Shown here piece after piece: positions 2-9,411 of a stretch of 9,437 nucleotides of DNA. The stretch is from Candidatus Thioglobus sp. (GTDB taxonomy: Bacteria > Pseudomonadota > Gammaproteobacteria > PS1 > Pseudothioglobaceae): the NCBI GenBank assembly GCA_015163925.1, contig JAAOIF010000026.1:1-9437 (forward strand). The letters are read 5' to 3'. Positions within the stretch are counted from its first letter, which is position 1. Every line of letters starts with the position of its first letter. The notes beneath the pieces were generated by a model. It saw nothing but the letters and a program-made list of their open reading frames with translations, did no database searches and was not told the DNA's origin. A program made the position numbers and the translations under genes.

Positions 2-448
2 TTTGAGGGTCAGCCAGTTTTTTGCAGTCTTGCGTTTTGCAGGCGTGGCAATGCTTTGCCGACCGCTGAGGTAGTCGCCGGTGAGTGATTTTGGATTATT
101 ACTAATTTGTTTTGGCGTGCCGCAAGCGCTAATTTCTCCGCCATGCACGCCAGCGCCGGGGCCAATATCAATAACAAAATCGGCTTGCAAAATCGCCTCT
201 TCATCATGCTCAACCACAATCACAGTATTGCCTAAATCACGCAAATAAGTCAGCGTGCCAAGCAGTTTTTTATTGTCTCGCTGATGCAAACCAATTGACG
301 GTTCGTCCAAAACATACAGCACCCCCATCAGCCCAGCGCCGATTTGACTGGCGAGGCGGATTCGTTGTGATTCCCCGCCGGAGAGGCTGTTAGAACGGCG
401 CTCTAAACTCAAATATTCCAAGCCGACATTGATTAAAAATTCCAAGCG
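2..448 (-). CDS. uvrA: UvrA excinuclease ABC subunit A, internal fragment
   Basis: This is part of UvrA, the ATPase that scans DNA for lesions and loads UvrB in nucleotide excision repair. The roughly 148 residues cover the end of the first ABC ATPase module. Visible are the run [13 protein letters not shown], the ABC signature [14 protein letters not shown], the Walker B region [17 protein letters not shown], the switch-histidine segment [11 protein letters not shown], and the [13 protein letters not shown] motif typical of UvrA. It corresponds to approximately residues 470-615 of a protein of about 940. The frame is open to the window edge, so the second ATPase half lies outside. The N-terminal half, including the first Walker A and the UvrB-binding domain, is missing: upstream the frame runs straight into leuA. 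The identity is secure. Whether the gene is really broken here or the sequence is a chimera is unresolved; I favour a chimera. Confidence 0.93.
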
Positions 449-463
449 TACATTGACCTCGCC
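436..463. other. leuA/uvrA in-frame chimeric junction
   Basis: LeuA-type sequence (GEVNVRLE) passes directly into UvrA-type sequence ([16 protein letters not shown]) with no stop or frame change. The residues RLE fit both families, which suggests a join at about nine bases of shared sequence around 440-448. Such microhomology is common at amplification or assembly chimeras and also at illegitimate recombination sites. The window alone cannot separate these. Confidence 0.8.
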
Positions 464-1852
464 GAGGCTATCAGTGCCTTGAGTGACATTTGAAACTGAA
501 TAAAGTTGCAGATTTAGCTCCAGCTCAACCAATGAATTAATCGCACTAAAAGTGGCATCAACCGCTCCGGAAGTGCTTGCTGTGGCTGACTTTTCAACAT
601 CGTTAATACTCAAAATCACATTTGCTGTATTTTTGCCGCCGGTCTCCGAACAGACTTTCAGCGAAACCAATTTAATCAAATCAGTGGTTTGAGTTTGCAC
701 CTCTGAGGCCAATGCCTGCAAGTCTTCATCAAAAATTTGATGCTTTTTATCCGCTAATTCTTTAAAACGCAAAAAGCCATCATTCAAACTTTCATCAGTC
801 TCAAAACTAATTCCAAGCTCGCCAAGCCGCACTTTGAAAGCATTTCTGCCAGAATGCTTGCCGAGAACCAACTTATTAGTATTCCAGCCGACATCCTCAG
901 CGCGCATAATTTCGTAAGTTTCACGATATTTTAGAACGCCGTCCTGATGGATTCCGGCCTCATGGGCAAAGGCATTCGCGCCGACAATGGCTTTATTCGG
1001 CTGGACAATAAAACCAGTTACGCTGGAAACCAAGCGTGATGCCGCCAGAATATGGGCTGAGTCAATGCCGGAGTCGCAATCAAATATGTCTTGCCGAGTG
1101 CGCACTGCCATCACAATTTCCTCCAGCGAAGTGTTGCCAGCACGCTCGCCCAGCCCGTTAATAGTGCATTCCACTTGCCTTGCGCCGTTCAGCACCGCCG
1201 CCAAAGAATTAGCCACAGCCAGCCCCAAATCATTATGGCAATGGGCTGAAAAAATCGCCTTATCAGCATTCGGCACGCGCTCAATCAAAGACTTAATTGT
1301 TGCCCCAAACTGCTCGGGAATGTTGTAGCCGACAGTGTCCGGAATGTTAATGGTAGTGGCGCCTGCAGCGATTGTGGCTTCAATAATTCGGCAGAGAAAA
1401 TCCTCATCCGAGCGCCCGGCGTCCTCAGGCGAAAATTCAATATTATCAGTAAATTTCCCAGCCCGCTTAACCGCCCGCACCGCCTGAGTTACCACCTCAT
1501 CAGCGCTCATTTTCAGCTTCATTTTCATATGAATATCTGAGGTGGCAATGAAAGTGTGAATCCGTGCAGAATTAGCGCCCCTCAGAGCCTCAGCGGCGCG
1601 GTCAATGTCTTTGTCAAGGGCTCTGGCGAGTGAGCAAATAGTGGAATTTTGCACCGCTTTAGCAACCGCTTGGACTGCCTCAAAATCCCCCACTGAGGCG
1701 ATGGCAAAGCCAGCTTCAATCACATCAACTTGCATTTTTTCCAGCGTTTTGGCAATCCGCACTTTTTCATCTTTTGTCATTGAAGCGCCGGGCGACTGCT
1801 CTCCGTCCCGCAAAGTGGTGTCAAAAATAATGAGTTTGTTAGAATTAGACAT
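443..1852 (-). CDS. leuA: 2-isopropylmalate synthase, C-terminus cut off at a chimeric join
   Basis: LeuA condenses acetyl-CoA with 2-oxoisovalerate, the committed step of leucine synthesis. It starts at ATG 1852-1850, with GGAG at 1862-1859 six bases upstream. The TIM-barrel catalytic domain is complete: [15 protein letters not shown] at residues 11-25 (Arg15, metal ligand Asp16), SAHCHNDLG with metal ligands His204 and His206, and NGLGERAGN ending at Asn240. The linker region follows, with HEAGIHQDG (297-305) and GKHSGRNAF (331-339). The C-terminal leucine-sensing domain begins near residue 390 but breaks off at GEVNVRLE (464-471), about 40-45 residues before the usual end. From there the frame continues in uvrA without a stop. 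The preceding 161 bp hold a leucine-rich leader peptide and an RNA inverted repeat covering the ribosome-binding site. Identity is certain; the C-terminus as shown is doubtful. Confidence 0.95.
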
Positions 1853-1857
1853 TTTAA

Positions 1858-1952
1858 TCTCCGTGTTTGTTGCTTAAATTTTAGTGTTAGGCTTTTTCGC
1901 CAAACGAAATGATAAATTAGCTTACGATAATAATCGCAACAAAACCAGGAGA
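1858..1952 (-). promoter_or_regulatory. Inverted repeat pairing leader Leu codons with the leuA ribosome-binding site
   Basis: The RNA arm at 1952-1936 (TCTCC TGGT TTTGTTGC) is complementary to the arm at 1873-1858 (GCAACAAA CAC GGAGA). This gives eight plus five pairs around a 4/3-base internal loop, in which one more G-C pair is possible. The upstream arm is exactly leader codons 15-19 (Leu-Leu-Val-Leu-Leu) plus flanking bases; the downstream arm contains the leuA GGAG. The inferred role is a translational attenuator: a ribosome waiting at leucine codons would cover the first arm and expose the leuA start. The complementarity is seen directly; the mechanism is inference. Confidence 0.65.
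1859..1862 (-). promoter_or_regulatory. Shine-Dalgarno of leuA
   Basis: GGAG lies six bases before the leuA ATG. It is among the best ribosome-binding sites in the window and fixes the start. It lies inside one arm (1858-1873) of an inverted repeat whose other arm covers the leucine codons of the leader peptide, so it is predicted to be hidden when that pairing forms. Confidence 0.85.
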
Positions 1953-1993
1953 ATGCTTTGTTTGCAGTGGAAATTGCTAATTTGATTTATCAT
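1909..1993 (-). promoter_or_regulatory. Second inverted repeat linking leader start to bases after its stop
   Basis: ATGATAAATCAAATTAGC (1993-1976), which is the leader start codon and next five codons, can pair with GCTAATTTATCAT (1921-1909), which begins directly after the leader TAA. The pairing is seven plus six base pairs with a five-base bulge (1987-1983). It crosses the other inverted repeat (1858-1873 with 1936-1952), so the two would be alternatives or form a pseudoknot. The arms are A+T-rich, so chance complementarity is less easily excluded than for the other repeat. Confidence 0.4.
1922..1993 (-). CDS. Leucine-rich leader peptide upstream of leuA (23 aa)
   Basis: An ATG at 1993-1991 opens a 23-codon frame ending in TAA at 1924-1922. 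The peptide starts MINQISNFHCKQS and ends ILLVLLRLLS. Six of its last nine residues are leucine (codons 15, 16, 18, 19, 21 and 22: CTC, CTG, TTG, TTG, TTA, TTA). This is the hallmark of an amino-acid attenuation leader such as enterobacterial leuL, although sequence and length differ. It lies 69 bases upstream of leuA on the same strand. The leucine codons overlap one arm of an RNA inverted repeat that includes the leuA Shine-Dalgarno. No Shine-Dalgarno precedes the leader ATG. A small hairpin (1939-1933 with 1928-1922, seven pairs including one G-U, loop of four) spans its last codons and stop. I expect it to act through its translation rather than as a functional peptide. Confidence 0.72.
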   Translation of the reverse strand: MINQISNFHCKQSILLVLLRLLS

Positions 1994-2001
1994 AATTGCA
2001 A

Positions 2002-2029
2002 ATTATAAACTATTCAAATCGCTTGAAAA
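2002..2029 (-). promoter_or_regulatory. Candidate sigma-70 promoter for leader-leuA
   Basis: A perfect -10 TATAAT (2007-2002) lies 16 bases downstream of TTTTCA (2029-2024), a four-of-six match to the -35 consensus. The -35 overlaps the end of pssA. Normal spacing puts the transcription start at about 1995, within two bases of the leader ATG at 1993. That would make the leader mRNA nearly leaderless and explain its lack of a Shine-Dalgarno. Read-through from pssA is also possible. Confidence 0.42.
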
Positions 2030-4320: not shown

Positions 4321-6054
4321 TTACACTAAATTCAAGCCTTCATCATCGGTTGATTGCATTTTATCCTTGCTTGCCAGTAGCATTTCGTGATGCCCGGCGC
4401 CGGCTGCAATCATCGGAAAAACATTCTCAGTCGGGTCGGTAATAATATCCAAAAACACAGTTTTATCCTTTTGCTTAAATGCCTCAATCAGCGCCGGTTT
4501 CAGGTCTGCCGATTTTTCAACCTTAATGCCGCTATGCCCATAACCCTCACTGAGCTTGACAAAATCCGGCAACGCATCCATATAAGACATCGCATAACGC
4601 TTGTTGTAAAAAAACTCTTGCCACTGCCGCACCATTCCCAAATAGCCGTTATTTAGATTGATAATTTTAACCGGAATGCTGTACTGGCGCATAGTTGAGA
4701 GCTCTTGCAGCATCATTTGAATACTGCCCTCGCCGGTCACACAAGCCACATCACGGCTCGGCTCGGCAAGTTTTGCACCCATCGCCGCCGGCAGCCCAAA
4801 GCCCATAGTCCCCAGCCCGCCTGAGTTAATCCACCGCCGCGGCTCATCAAAAGGGTAATATTGCGCCGCCCACATCTGATGCTGCCCGACATCACTCGTT
4901 ACAATCGCCTCGCCGCCGGTTACCTGATACAAAGCCTGAATCACACTTTGCGGCTTAATAACGCCGGTTTTAGTGCTGTAAGCCAGCGAATCCTTGCTCC
5001 GCCACTTGTCAATTTGCGCCCACCAATTAGCAATTTCAGCGGTCTTTTTGCCCTTTAACGCTTGCAGCAAATCGCTCAAAACCGCCCTGACTTGCCCAAC
5101 AATCGCCACATCAATACTAACGGTTTTGCCGATGGAGGAAGGGTCAATATCAATATGAATGATTTTCGCAAACGGACAAAATTTATCCAAATTACCAGTA
5201 ATTCTATCGTCAAATCGCGCCCCGACAGCAATAATACAATCCGCCTCGTGCATTGCCATATTCGCTTCATAAGTGCCGTGCATGCCAAGCATACCAAGGG
5301 ATTGAGGGTCAGTCGCCGGATAAGCGCCAAGCCCCATCAGCGTTTGCGTAATCGGAAAATTCAGCAACCGAGTAAATTCACGCAGCTCAGAACTCGCATT
5401 CCCAATCACACTGCCGCCTCCAGAGTAAATCAGCGGGCGCTCGGCACTCATAATTAAATCCACAGCCTTGCTAATTTGTGCTGCCTCAACTGCCACTTCA
5501 GGCTGATAGGAACGCATATTTATAGTGTCAGGATAGGATTTTTCAGCAGTCTGAGCGATGGTTACATCTTTTGTAATGTCAATTAGCACCGGACCGGGGC
5601 GACCGGTAGCGGCGATGTGAAAGGCTTTTTTGACCGTGCTTGCCAAAATATTAATATCAGTTACCAAGAAATTATGCTTCACGCAAGAGCGAGTAATCCC
5701 CACTGCATCAACCTCTTGAAAGGCATCATTGCCGATTACCGCCGAAGACACTTGCCCGGAAATTACCACTAACGGAATAGAATCCATATAGGCTGTGGCA
5801 ATGCCGGTTACCGCATTCGTCAGCCCGGGCCCGGAAGTGACTAAAGCCGTGCCGACCTTGCCGCTAACTCTGGCGTAACCGTCCGCCCCATGCACTGCCC
5901 CTTGCTCATGCCGCACCAAAATATGCTTGATTTCTTGGCTCAAATCTAAGGCATCGTAAATATGCAAAACAGCCCCGCCCGGATAGCCAAAAATGCACTC
6001 CACGCCCTCGTTTTTGAGGCTTTGGATTAAAATTTGAGCGCCGTTTAATTTCAT
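4321..6054 (-). CDS. ilvI: Acetolactate synthase large (catalytic) subunit
   Basis: This thiamine-diphosphate enzyme condenses two pyruvates, or pyruvate and 2-oxobutyrate, to start valine/leucine and isoleucine synthesis. The pyrimidine-binding domain has FGYPGGAVL (22-30) and HILVRHEQGAVHGADGYAR, with catalytic Glu50. The central FAD-binding domain lies roughly at 190-340 and includes GARFDDRITGNL (278-289). The PP domain has the metal/ThDP motif from GEGSIQ (441-446) to NLNNGYLG (466-473). GEGS instead of GDGS is common in gammaproteobacterial homologues. The 577 residues match the family. ilvI and ilvB cannot be told apart from sequence alone here; linkage to an E. coli IlvH-like subunit favours ilvI. 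No Shine-Dalgarno is evident before the ATG. The 66 bp upstream hold an A+T-rich palindrome and two TATAAT boxes. Confidence 0.96.
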   Translation of the reverse strand: MKLNGAQILIQSLKNEGVECIFGYPGGAVLHIYDALDLSQEIKHILVRHEQGAVHGADGYARVSGKVGTALVTSGPGLTNAVTGIATAYMDSIPLVVISGQVSSAVIGNDAFQEVDAVGITRSCVKHNFLVTDINILASTVKKAFHIAATGRPGPVLIDITKDVTIAQTAEKSYPDTINMRSYQPEVAVEAAQISKAVDLIMSAERPLIYSGGGSVIGNASSELREFTRLLNFPITQTLMGLGAYPATDPQSLGMLGMHGTYEANMAMHEADCIIAVGARFDDRITGNLDKFCPFAKIIHIDIDPSSIGKTVSIDVAIVGQVRAVLSDLLQALKGKKTAEIANWWAQIDKWRSKDSLAYSTKTGVIKPQSVIQALYQVTGGEAIVTSDVGQHQMWAAQYYPFDEPRRWINSGGLGTMGFGLPAAMGAKLAEPSRDVACVTGEGSIQMMLQELSTMRQYSIPVKIINLNNGYLGMVRQWQEFFYNKRYAMSYMDALPDFVKLSEGYGHSGIKVEKSADLKPALIEAFKQKDKTVFLDIITDPTENVFPMIAAGAGHHEMLLASKDKMQSTDDEGLNLV

Positions 6055-8273: not shown

Positions 8274-9120
8274 TCGCCCTGCCCGTCAGCTCTAACCACT
8301 GCTGCAAGTGTGCAAATTCCACAGTTTTGCCACTTAGTAATTGCCGAAATTTCCTCGCCTGCGGCTGCCCATGATACAAGCCCAAAATATGCCGAGTCAT
8401 TGACCGCAGCGGCACTCCGAGCTGATTTTGCGTTTTCATATATTTCATAAAATCCAATAATATTTGCTCACGGCTCGGCATTTTAGTCGTTTGCTGATAA
8501 ATCATATTATCCACTTTTGCCAGCAAAAAAGGCTGCTGATACGCCGCCCGCCCGAGCATCACATTATCCACTTTTTGCAACTGATTTTGCGCCTCTTCAA
8601 GACTAATAATTCCGCCATTTATGCCAATCGTAAGTGCTGGAAAATCACGCTTAATCTGATGCACCCAAGCATAATTTAGCGGCGGCACACAGCGATTTTC
8701 CTTAGGGCTGAGACCCTTGAGCCAAGCCTTCCGAGCATGAATTATAAAGCTCTCACAGCCGGCATTTTTAACCGTCAGAATAAAATTACACAGCTCATCA
8801 TAACTCTCCATTTCATCCACACCAATCCGCGTTTTGACACTCACAGGCAGCTCAGACGCCGCCTGCATAGCCAAAACACAAGCGGCAACCACCTGCGGAG
8901 TTTGCATCAAACATGCCCCAAAACTCCCCGATTGCACCCTGTCAGACGGGCAGCCGACATTAATATTTACCCCGTCATAGCCCCAGTCCTGTGCGATTTT
9001 AGCCGCCTGTGCCATCTCCGCCGGCTCACTCCCACCGAGCTGCAAAATCAGCGGATTCTCCGCCGCATCAAAATCCAGAAGCCGATTTTTATCCCCAAAA
9101 ATCACCGCCCGAGCCGTTAT
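8263..9120 (-). CDS. dusA: tRNA-dihydrouridine synthase A, N-terminus missing
   Basis: DusA is an FMN enzyme reducing specific uridines in the tRNA D-loop. The retained part shows LQLGGSEPAEMAQAAKIA, INVGCPSDRVQSGSFGACLM (the cysteine of GCPS is the expected catalytic acid), VKTRIGVDEMESYDELC, FIIHARKAWLKGLSPKENR, IGINGGI and VMLGRAAYQQPF, all typical of DusA rather than DusB or DusC. A GTG at 9105 looks like a start but is probably an internal valine: the codons before it still read ITARA, matching the family's TEMITARAVIFGD region. Beyond about 9120 the similarity ends and roughly 35-45 N-terminal residues, including the usual APMLDWTD segment, are missing. The TAA at 8265-8263 lies inside ftsA, overlapping its start. 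Confidence 0.93.
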   Translation of the reverse strand: MTARAVIFGDKNRLLDFDAAENPLILQLGGSEPAEMAQAAKIAQDWGYDGVNINVGCPSDRVQSGSFGACLMQTPQVVAACVLAMQAASELPVSVKTRIGVDEMESYDELCNFILTVKNAGCESFIIHARKAWLKGLSPKENRCVPPLNYAWVHQIKRDFPALTIGINGGIISLEEAQNQLQKVDNVMLGRAAYQQPFLLAKVDNMIYQQTTKMPSREQILLDFMKYMKTQNQLGVPLRSMTRHILGLYHGQPQARKFRQLLSGKTVEFAHLQQWLELTGRANGG

Positions 9121-9126
9121 AATGAC
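9112..9126. other. dusA / surface-protein chimeric junction
   Basis: Reading leftward, DusA sequence begins with ITARAVIFGD (codons from about 9120). Reading rightward on the plus strand, a repeat-domain protein begins with NDNPPVGVPVITGT (codons from 9121). Two coding fragments of opposite orientation, each lacking its 5' end, meet head to head within a few bases with no intergenic DNA. Natural gene order does not produce this; a chimera or rearrangement does. Confidence 0.75.
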
Positions 9127-9411
9127 AATCCGCCAGTCGGGGTGCCAGTTATTACTGGCACAACCGCACAGGGAAGCGTCCTCAACGCCGATATATCAGC
9201 TATTAGCGATGCTGATGGCTTAGGCGCATTTTCATATCAATGGCAAGCAGGTGGCACTAATATTACTGGGGCAACCAACCAAACCCTGACCCTGACTGCC
9301 GCTGAAATAGGCGCTCTGCTCAATGCTAACGCCGCTTCCGGGACAATATCCTCCGCCACCACCCGAACAGTCGCCTCAGGTTTTAATTCATCATTTTTCC
9401 AAGTCGGATAA
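9121..9411 (+). CDS. Fragment of a repetitive Ig/cadherin-like (VCBS-type) surface protein
   Basis: About 96 residues are open from the junction to TAA at 9409-9411. The first half, with NPPVGVPVITGTTAQGSVL, DADGLGAFSYQWQAGG, and NQTLTLTAAEIG, matches the tandem-repeat modules of very large bacterial adhesins and RTX-like secreted proteins. The second half (after AEIGALLNAN) no longer follows the usual repeat pattern and ends in FNSSFFQVG, so it may be a degenerate last repeat, a frameshift, or another join. No start codon or ribosome-binding site exists for it here; the N-terminal part is missing. Its real genomic location is unknown, and its tandem repeats make it a likely source of misassembly. 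Confidence 0.6.
   Translation, partial: NDNPPVGVPVITGTTAQGSVLNADISAISDADGLGAFSYQWQAGGTNITGATNQTLTLTAAEIGALLNANAASGTISSATTRTVASGFNSSFFQVG

Follow-up and report, generated by a model that had tools for sequence, protein, structure and literature searches.

What is the function of a short reading frame that ends in a cluster of leucine codons immediately upstream of leuA? The window, the whole stretch of DNA that we analyzed, is a complete contig of 9437 bases (G000:C149) from a genome of 1.17 Mb in 230 contigs (86% complete). Its minus-strand genes are dus, ftsA, lpxC, genes of the ilvI-, ilvH-, ilvC- and pssA-types, and leuA. The pssA-type gene ends at 2014 and a leader ORF of 23 codons plus TAA follows it (1922..1993, minus strand; MINQISNFHCKQSILLVLLRLLS), leaving 69 bases to leuA. 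The preliminary description of this DNA counted six leucines among the last nine sense codons, and we find the same six, at codons 15, 16, 18, 19, 21 and 22. The answer we consider moderately probable, judging from the sequence and from modeled folds, is that the leader would be a leucine-sensing translational attenuator of leuA, acting through complementarity between the bases of Leu15-Leu19 and the ribosome-binding site of leuA. Such a role would account for the purpose of a conserved leuA leader in genomes of the Thioglobus family.

The downstream gene encodes 2-isopropylmalate synthase (440..1852, minus strand; Pfam HMGL-like, HCS_D2 and positions 1-100 of the 131 of LeuA_dimer), and among the named relatives of its product are Candidatus Ruthturnera (85%) and Candidatus Thioglobus (80%). 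It starts with an ATG at 1852-1850, preceded by a Shine-Dalgarno (SD) sequence, GGAG, at 1862-1859. Its lower boundary is approximate because the C-terminal end has been replaced in the contig: the best relatives align with the window LeuA up to query residue 471-475. Within 2-449 (minus strand) similarity to the LeuA of relatives ends at about residue 470 and a UvrA-like piece continues from there, query residues about 460-500 matching long uvrA-sized frames in relatives; the name uvrA is our own presumption from the sequence. Positions 402-449 (48 bases) recur unchanged in contig C213 of the same genome, and the LeuA/UvrA-like junction is probably an assembly chimera. Near the other end of the window, a 224-residue ORF (8737-9411, plus strand) overlaps dus and has no Pfam match; its last part presumably resembles a repeated extracellular protein sequence, and this region is perhaps a second chimeric contig end.

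How strong is the complementarity between the leucine codons and the SD region? Of the 13-14 pairs claimed previously between 1952-1936 and 1873-1858, we count 14 in a predicted structure whose coordinates were assigned by hand. The anti-SD segment over Leu15-Leu19 (1936..1952, minus strand) pairs with the SD-region arm GCAACAAACACGGAGA (1858..1873, minus strand), which includes the leuA GGAG, 1952-1948 with 1858-1862, 1946 with 1863 and 1943-1936 with 1866-1873. The duplex, at -18.4 kcal/mol, was equalled in 9/5000 dinucleotide shuffles of the leader and 24/5000 shuffles of the SD region. Leucine codons such as CUC look like an anti-SD in any case, which makes synonymous recoding of the leader an important control; 49/5000 recodings formed a duplex as strong. 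In the window the minimum free energy fold of the whole leader includes this pairing, and the mean probability of the SD being paired to the leader is 0.87, vs 0.35 with shuffled leaders.

Is the pairing a property of the window only? Taking it as predicted where the mean pairing of the SD to the leader was at least 0.7, and with G019 and G085 left out (G019 has no SD-like site by the pattern used), we found it in 38/71 family genomes, distributed unevenly among genera (g5 9/11, g7 6/7, g3 15/23, g2 5/9, g4 2/12, g1 1/2, and none of g6, g8, g9, g10 or g11). In a comparison with shuffled leaders that did include G085, the genus means exceeded those of the shuffled leaders in g5 (0.85 vs 0.46), g7 (0.80 vs 0.42), g3 (0.74 vs 0.58) and g2 (0.66 vs 0.46), and fell below them in g4 (0.28 vs 0.32), g6 (0.06 vs 0.25), g8 (0.19 vs 0.76) and g9 (0.08 vs 0.24). 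The number of leucine codons was weakly related to SD pairing (Spearman 0.21, P 0.08). It had been argued that relatives lacking both a Leu-rich frame and the complementarity would count against the model, and one such relative exists in G001, the one genus-mate of the window, which has neither a Leu run nor extended pairing; the trait therefore comes and goes.

This patchiness suits an alternative that we nevertheless hold to be quite unlikely, namely that the leader is conserved but its complementarity to the SD is a by-product of anti-SD-like CUC/CUU codons, leuA being controlled elsewhere. Even shuffled leaders reach an SD pairing of 0.2-0.8 in most genera. However, the pairing in the window reaches eight bases past the SD core, to a strength that few synonymous recodings equal, and in g5 and g7 the extension is present with different bases, for instance GUGUUAC:GUAACAC in G022 and UUUGUUGC:GCAACAAA in G023. 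In the duplexes of g1, g5 and g7 generally, the distal helix is composed of differing bases and the spacer before the SD helix varies in length.

Covariation of the two arms, the check suggested in the preliminary description, was found in part. Cognate duplexes of the Leu region with the SD had a mean of -12.0, vs -10.1 when permuted, the lowest of 5000 permutations being -11.3, with relatedness uncorrected; this set comprised 73/74 genomes (G080 had no anchor), 70 after dereplication, and included G019 and G085 though both were mis-anchored. The distal helix on its own covaries weakly. For g1, g5 and g7 plus G099, permutations were as low as observed in 138/10000, but the corresponding counts per 10000 were 1092 for all 67 and, within single genera, 3239 (g5), 1035 (g7), 813 (g4), 7487 (g2) and 9065 (g3); the value at the genus level was 0.037.

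The leader ORF also contains a predicted hairpin, H1 (1936..1965, minus strand; 5′ arm 1965-1955, loop 1954-1946, 3′ arm 1945-1936, coordinates by hand), whose loop contains CUCC, the complement of GGAG. Its region had a mean z-score of -1.63 (66 distinct sequences), whereas the means of nine control segments ranged from -0.60 to +0.40. We take the z-scores as the support for H1 because arm-swapping was not decisive: the like-for-like difference was -2.21, yet among the five control segments one reached -2.45, in runs without G019 and G085 set beside control segments that included both. With nested folds only, the H1 loop was complementary to the SD in 58/67 at p<=0.1 relative to background windows (background means were faulty for G086, G088 and G023, and ranks were retained in 58/67). 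There was no genus-level covariation of loop and SD (0.68), a result that favors the by-product explanation. G019 and G085 were absent from the dereplicated references, from the loop:SD and distal-helix covariation tests and from the z-score sets.

What, then, is conserved throughout the family? A short ATG-started ORF occupies the leader position in 73 of the 74 family genomes in which the front of leuA could be read, and G030 retains an LLRLLP tail with no leader ATG found. Among the 73 ORFs, 64 end RLL[P/S]-stop, one RLLL and one LLLP; those of G095 and G098 run on past the hairpin at the stop codon, and five, all of genus g2, are truncated or shifted. Five or six of the last nine codons are Leu in 51/73 family leaders and two to four in the other 22. 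In the 68 leaders compared for tail codons (a set without G019, G085 and the truncated g2 leaders G024, G029 and G033), Arg is CGA in 67/68, the first Leu TTA in 66/68 and Pro CCG in 52/68, although in leuA itself CGA makes up 12% of Arg codons, TTA 23% of Leu codons and CCG 10%. The constraint thus extends to nucleotides. At window positions 1936-1928 and the equivalent codons of relatives, CGA-TTA is nearly invariant in nucleotides, exceeding what the peptide would require. The window departs from the family at the very end, with TCG-TAA. In four g2 loci (L013, L014, L016 and L138, from genomes of about 1.0 Mb) an in-frame TAA deletes the RLLP tail; the sequence of the tail hairpin is preserved in three of these genomes and eroded in G080, and the four represent a decaying leader.

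Could this tail be the functional element, as a termination-arrest signal in the nascent peptide or the stop-codon hairpin, the Leu run being of lesser importance? The tail is retained where the Leu run is absent or reduced (G001 and most of g4), and its codon bias also speaks for that reading. Against this, a pure peptide signal would tolerate synonymous codons, yet these are rare at the Arg and at the first Leu; the window ends LLS; and in G095 and G098 the stop codon is replaced by TCA, the frame running on for three codons. We regard termination arrest as distinctly improbable.

Two further hairpins, each from single folds of a set that took in the mis-anchored G019 and G085, accompany the tail: H2 at the leader stop codon (1922..1939, minus strand), which is included in our covariance model R2, and H3 downstream of the leader and ahead of the SD region (1886..1905, minus strand). 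In relatives H2 typically reads YURCC-NUAR-GGYAR with the stop codon in the loop, CCG followed by UAA giving a GUAA loop. In the window this canonical pairing is disrupted, and folding predicts instead a shifted hairpin of seven pairs, UUGCGAU-UAUU-AUCGUAA; the departure may be either genuine or an error of assembly. Mean z-scores were -3.1 for H2 (45 distinct sequences) and -2.0 for H3 (61 distinct), and changes on both sides occur in relatives at 4/4 counted H3 pairs. For H2 and H3 together, 39 sequences yielded 43 cells changed on both sides vs a shuffled mean of 12.1 (0/500 as high) and a covariation score of 0.337 vs 0.206 (0/500 as high). Two of the five measures, the six pairs with a double change and the 17 pair types, were unremarkable, being reached in 71/500 and 40/500 shuffles, respectively. 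Slid versions of the structure gave 2-10 double-changed cells, in a control that favors the R2 structure because that structure was picked from single folds. RNAalifold predicted zero consensus pairs for alignment A1 (39/41 dereplicated references, the truncated leaders L013 and L014 excluded), and our first model, R1, was therefore of sequence only.

The absence of a G+C-rich stem and U run before leuA, as remarked previously, stands at the sensitivity of a simple minus-strand scan of 1600-2500, in which we found no intrinsic terminator before leuA and a sole terminator-like site at 2170-2156, within pssA. Neither curated nor relaxed Rfam thresholds gave a relevant match for the leader. Might the leader instead regulate leuA by transcription termination that depends on Rho or another factor, SD sequestration merely adding polarity? 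That there is no intrinsic terminator, yet the leader and hairpins are conserved in genomes without predicted SD pairing (g9, g6 and most of g4), speaks for such a route. The distance from leader stop to leuA is 57-104 nt among the family loci listed, however, which is scant space for Rho loading, and we think factor-dependent termination unlikely.

R2, comprising the leader tail, H2 and H3 from 39 sequences, matched 74/83 genomes of the order, all in the family of the window and at a single site per genome save two genomes with two; outside its own 39 sequences it matched 35/44 of the remaining genomes. Of the nine misses, seven had no leuA match at E 1e-100, the leuA match of G059 starts at residue 201 and the copy in G080 is degraded. 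The match to the window has an E of 2.3e-12, the window itself being one of the sequences in the model. Among 274 genomes of the class there were five matches: three belong to the model's own sequences, and the remaining two, from beyond the family, each lie before leuA. The pattern of matches suggests that the leader element is tied to leuA and is probably older than the family, and R2 is usable for finding further leaders.

How would such a leader be translated? The window has a predicted promoter (2002..2029, minus strand) within the end of pssA and just beyond, with a -35 of TTTTCA (2029-2024) and a -10 of TATAAT (2007-2002), 10 of 12 matches in all; with the leader ATG at 1993, it would place the transcript start at that ATG or within a few bases of it. 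A perfect TATAAT lies 6-11 nt (most commonly 7 or 8) upstream of an in-frame leader ATG in 70/70 distinct family leaders. If only the first ATG is considered the spacing holds in 56/64, the exceptions including g7 leaders in which the first ATG overlaps the box; in shuffled upstream DNA a perfect TATAAT occurred anywhere in 26 nt in 4/64. Relatives match the -35 poorly (2.6 of 6 positions on average), and GGA or GAG is present at -15..-4 before the leader ATG in two leaders only. From the spacing of TATAAT and the rarity of GGA/GAG we infer that the leader is probably translated from a leaderless message. This prediction accords with the Streptomyces lividans leuA leader, which is reported to be transcribed leaderless and to have no typical terminator (PMC8079986). 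At 15/26 loci outside the family a TAnnnT box (>=4 of 6 matches) precedes a possible start by 6-9 nt, a raw count with no shuffled comparison.

The attenuator we favor would work as follows. Transcription would begin just past the TATAAT at the end of pssA, at the leader AUG or a few bases before it, so that translation of the leader would be leaderless whereas leuA would depend on its SD. In a ribosome-free leader, the Leu-codon segment is predicted to pair with the SD region, with two hairpins in between. With ample charged leucyl-tRNA, ribosomes would complete the leader and the SD would remain closed; if leucine were scarce, a ribosome waiting on Leu16-Leu19 would mask the anti-SD bases and leuA would be translated. 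As a guess, the RLLP-stop hairpin may keep the pairing arms near each other and may time ribosome release. Of these elements the sequences show the ORF, the complementarity and how the latter is conserved; the promoter, the leaderless start and the structures are predictions, and we infer the stalling, the dependence on leucine and a control that is translational and not transcriptional.

Thermodynamic folds in which a ribosome masked P-site positions -14 to +15, computed without pseudoknots or kinetics, are compatible with sequestration that is relieved by a stall. In the window the mean unpaired probability of the SD was 0.02 in the ribosome-free fold. Placing the A site on codons 2-10 gave 0.00 and on the stop codon 0.01; the values were 0.31-0.41 for codons 16-19, 0.38-0.44 for the non-Leu codons 12-14, and 0.05, 0.12 and 0.06 for Leu15, Leu21 and Leu22. 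Genus g5 (n=11) behaved alike, at 0.09 with no ribosome, 0.36 at tail Leu codons and 0.08 at the stop; the same three values were 0.16, 0.32 and 0.19 in g7 and 0.18, 0.38 and 0.29 in g3, where the SD thus remains partly open at the stop. Genus g2 hardly responded (0.08, 0.12, 0.10), and there was little change in g4, g6, g8, g9, g10 and g11. A freed SD remains over half paired. Since the SD is freed equally at codons 12-14 and hardly at Leu15, Leu21 or Leu22, any leucine specificity would come from the codons and not from the fold; covering the anti-SD must free the SD, so a leucine response could arise only from the positions at which ribosomes wait. The idea in the preliminary description that a stalled ribosome frees leuA is supported in part: in the window the SD opens at codons 16-19 and closes at the stop, but it opens just as far at codons 12-14; across the family the pairing is incompletely distributed, and the best-conserved parts, the RLLP-stop hairpin and H3, lie outside that model.

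How does this leader compare with known systems? The enterobacterial leu transcription attenuator likewise has a Leu-rich leader peptide upstream of leuA, but the window lacks both its terminator hairpin with U run and an Rfam match. For the rtpA (anti-TRAP) leader peptide of Bacillus subtilis, Chen and Yanofsky (2004) reportedly found that the leader peptide coding region regulates initiation of translation of the next gene, as we propose here; in that case the SD is reportedly blocked directly by a ribosome located at the stop codon, and long-range anti-SD pairing is not known to take part. Canestrari and co-workers (2020) are said to have described in mycobacteria leaderless polycysteine sORF attenuators, short frames with a run of a single amino acid to which the attenuated operon responds; these resemble the predicted leader of the window in being leaderless, with cysteine instead of leucine. 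Vitreschak and colleagues are also said to have made a comparative survey of proteobacterial attenuators.

Before leuA in Campylobacter and other Epsilonproteobacteria there is LeuL, a leader of 20-35 residues with several C-terminal Leu codons, and its RNA ends soon after the leader stop; its authors propose transcription termination and their search demanded a ribosome-binding site before the leader (PMC3847290). LeuL shares the Leu-rich C-terminus with the window and differs in the end of its RNA, the proposed termination and the ribosome-binding site. A likeness in base pairing is offered by the actinobacterial LEU element upstream of leuA (Seliverstov et al., 2005; PMC1262725), in which the Leu run of a leader peptide pairs with the leuA SD, an alternative fold has two internal helices and the base stem includes a conserved pseudoknot. 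The authors favored a protein-binding site over ribosome stalling, and in the analogous leuA leader of Streptomyces, mutations of the leucine codons were cited there as not consistent with attenuation, which counts against our reading. A Leu-run ORF before leuA and a Leu run:SD base stem are both features of the window. The use of the same bases as sensing codons and anti-SD was called unusually compact in the preliminary description; this design, its central novelty, has a precedent in the LEU element. LEU belongs to a different phylum, however, and the conserved RLLP-stop hairpin is a feature of the window family. We hold the gammaproteobacterial element separate because of that conserved tail and its lack of an Rfam match.

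In the literature we found, terminator-free SD-pairing leuA leaders are described for Actinobacteria, which is a reading of search results and not a survey. Our mostly open-access search found no paper on the gammaproteobacterial leader, and subscription papers may contain one. We suggest only tentatively that Gammaproteobacteria have an ancient leuA leader RNA that is new to the literature. In it a leucine-sensing frame, read leaderless, would be set against the SD-dependent reading of leuA; the stop codon of the frame would sit in a GNRA-type tetraloop in most relatives, and its anti-SD would be part of the codons that sense leucine, a design convergent with the actinobacterial LEU element. 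Conservation of such a leader in the Thioglobus family would make the sensing of leucine by a leaderless uORF directly testable in small-genome bacteria.

Outside the family, a related tail hairpin was found by pattern in 26/72 loci of other Gammaproteobacteria with enough upstream DNA, several of them labelled Methylophaga, and long-range pairing at the 26 loci is no more than suggestive (cognate mean -15.8 vs -13.6). In eight Methylophaga-like contigs (L037, L043, L044, L047, L051, L055, L057 and L059) the leaders upstream of leuA mostly end LLRLP and have both CAGAC(T) past the stop and AGTCTG ahead of the SD; in several, the Leu codons CCTGCT match AGCAGG at the SD. An Rfam search of 12 relatives returned Acido-Lenti-1 matches only, all in L089, a contig labelled Thiomargarita, in which three such matches lie downstream of leuA (4563-4607, 5473-5517 and 5559-5603).
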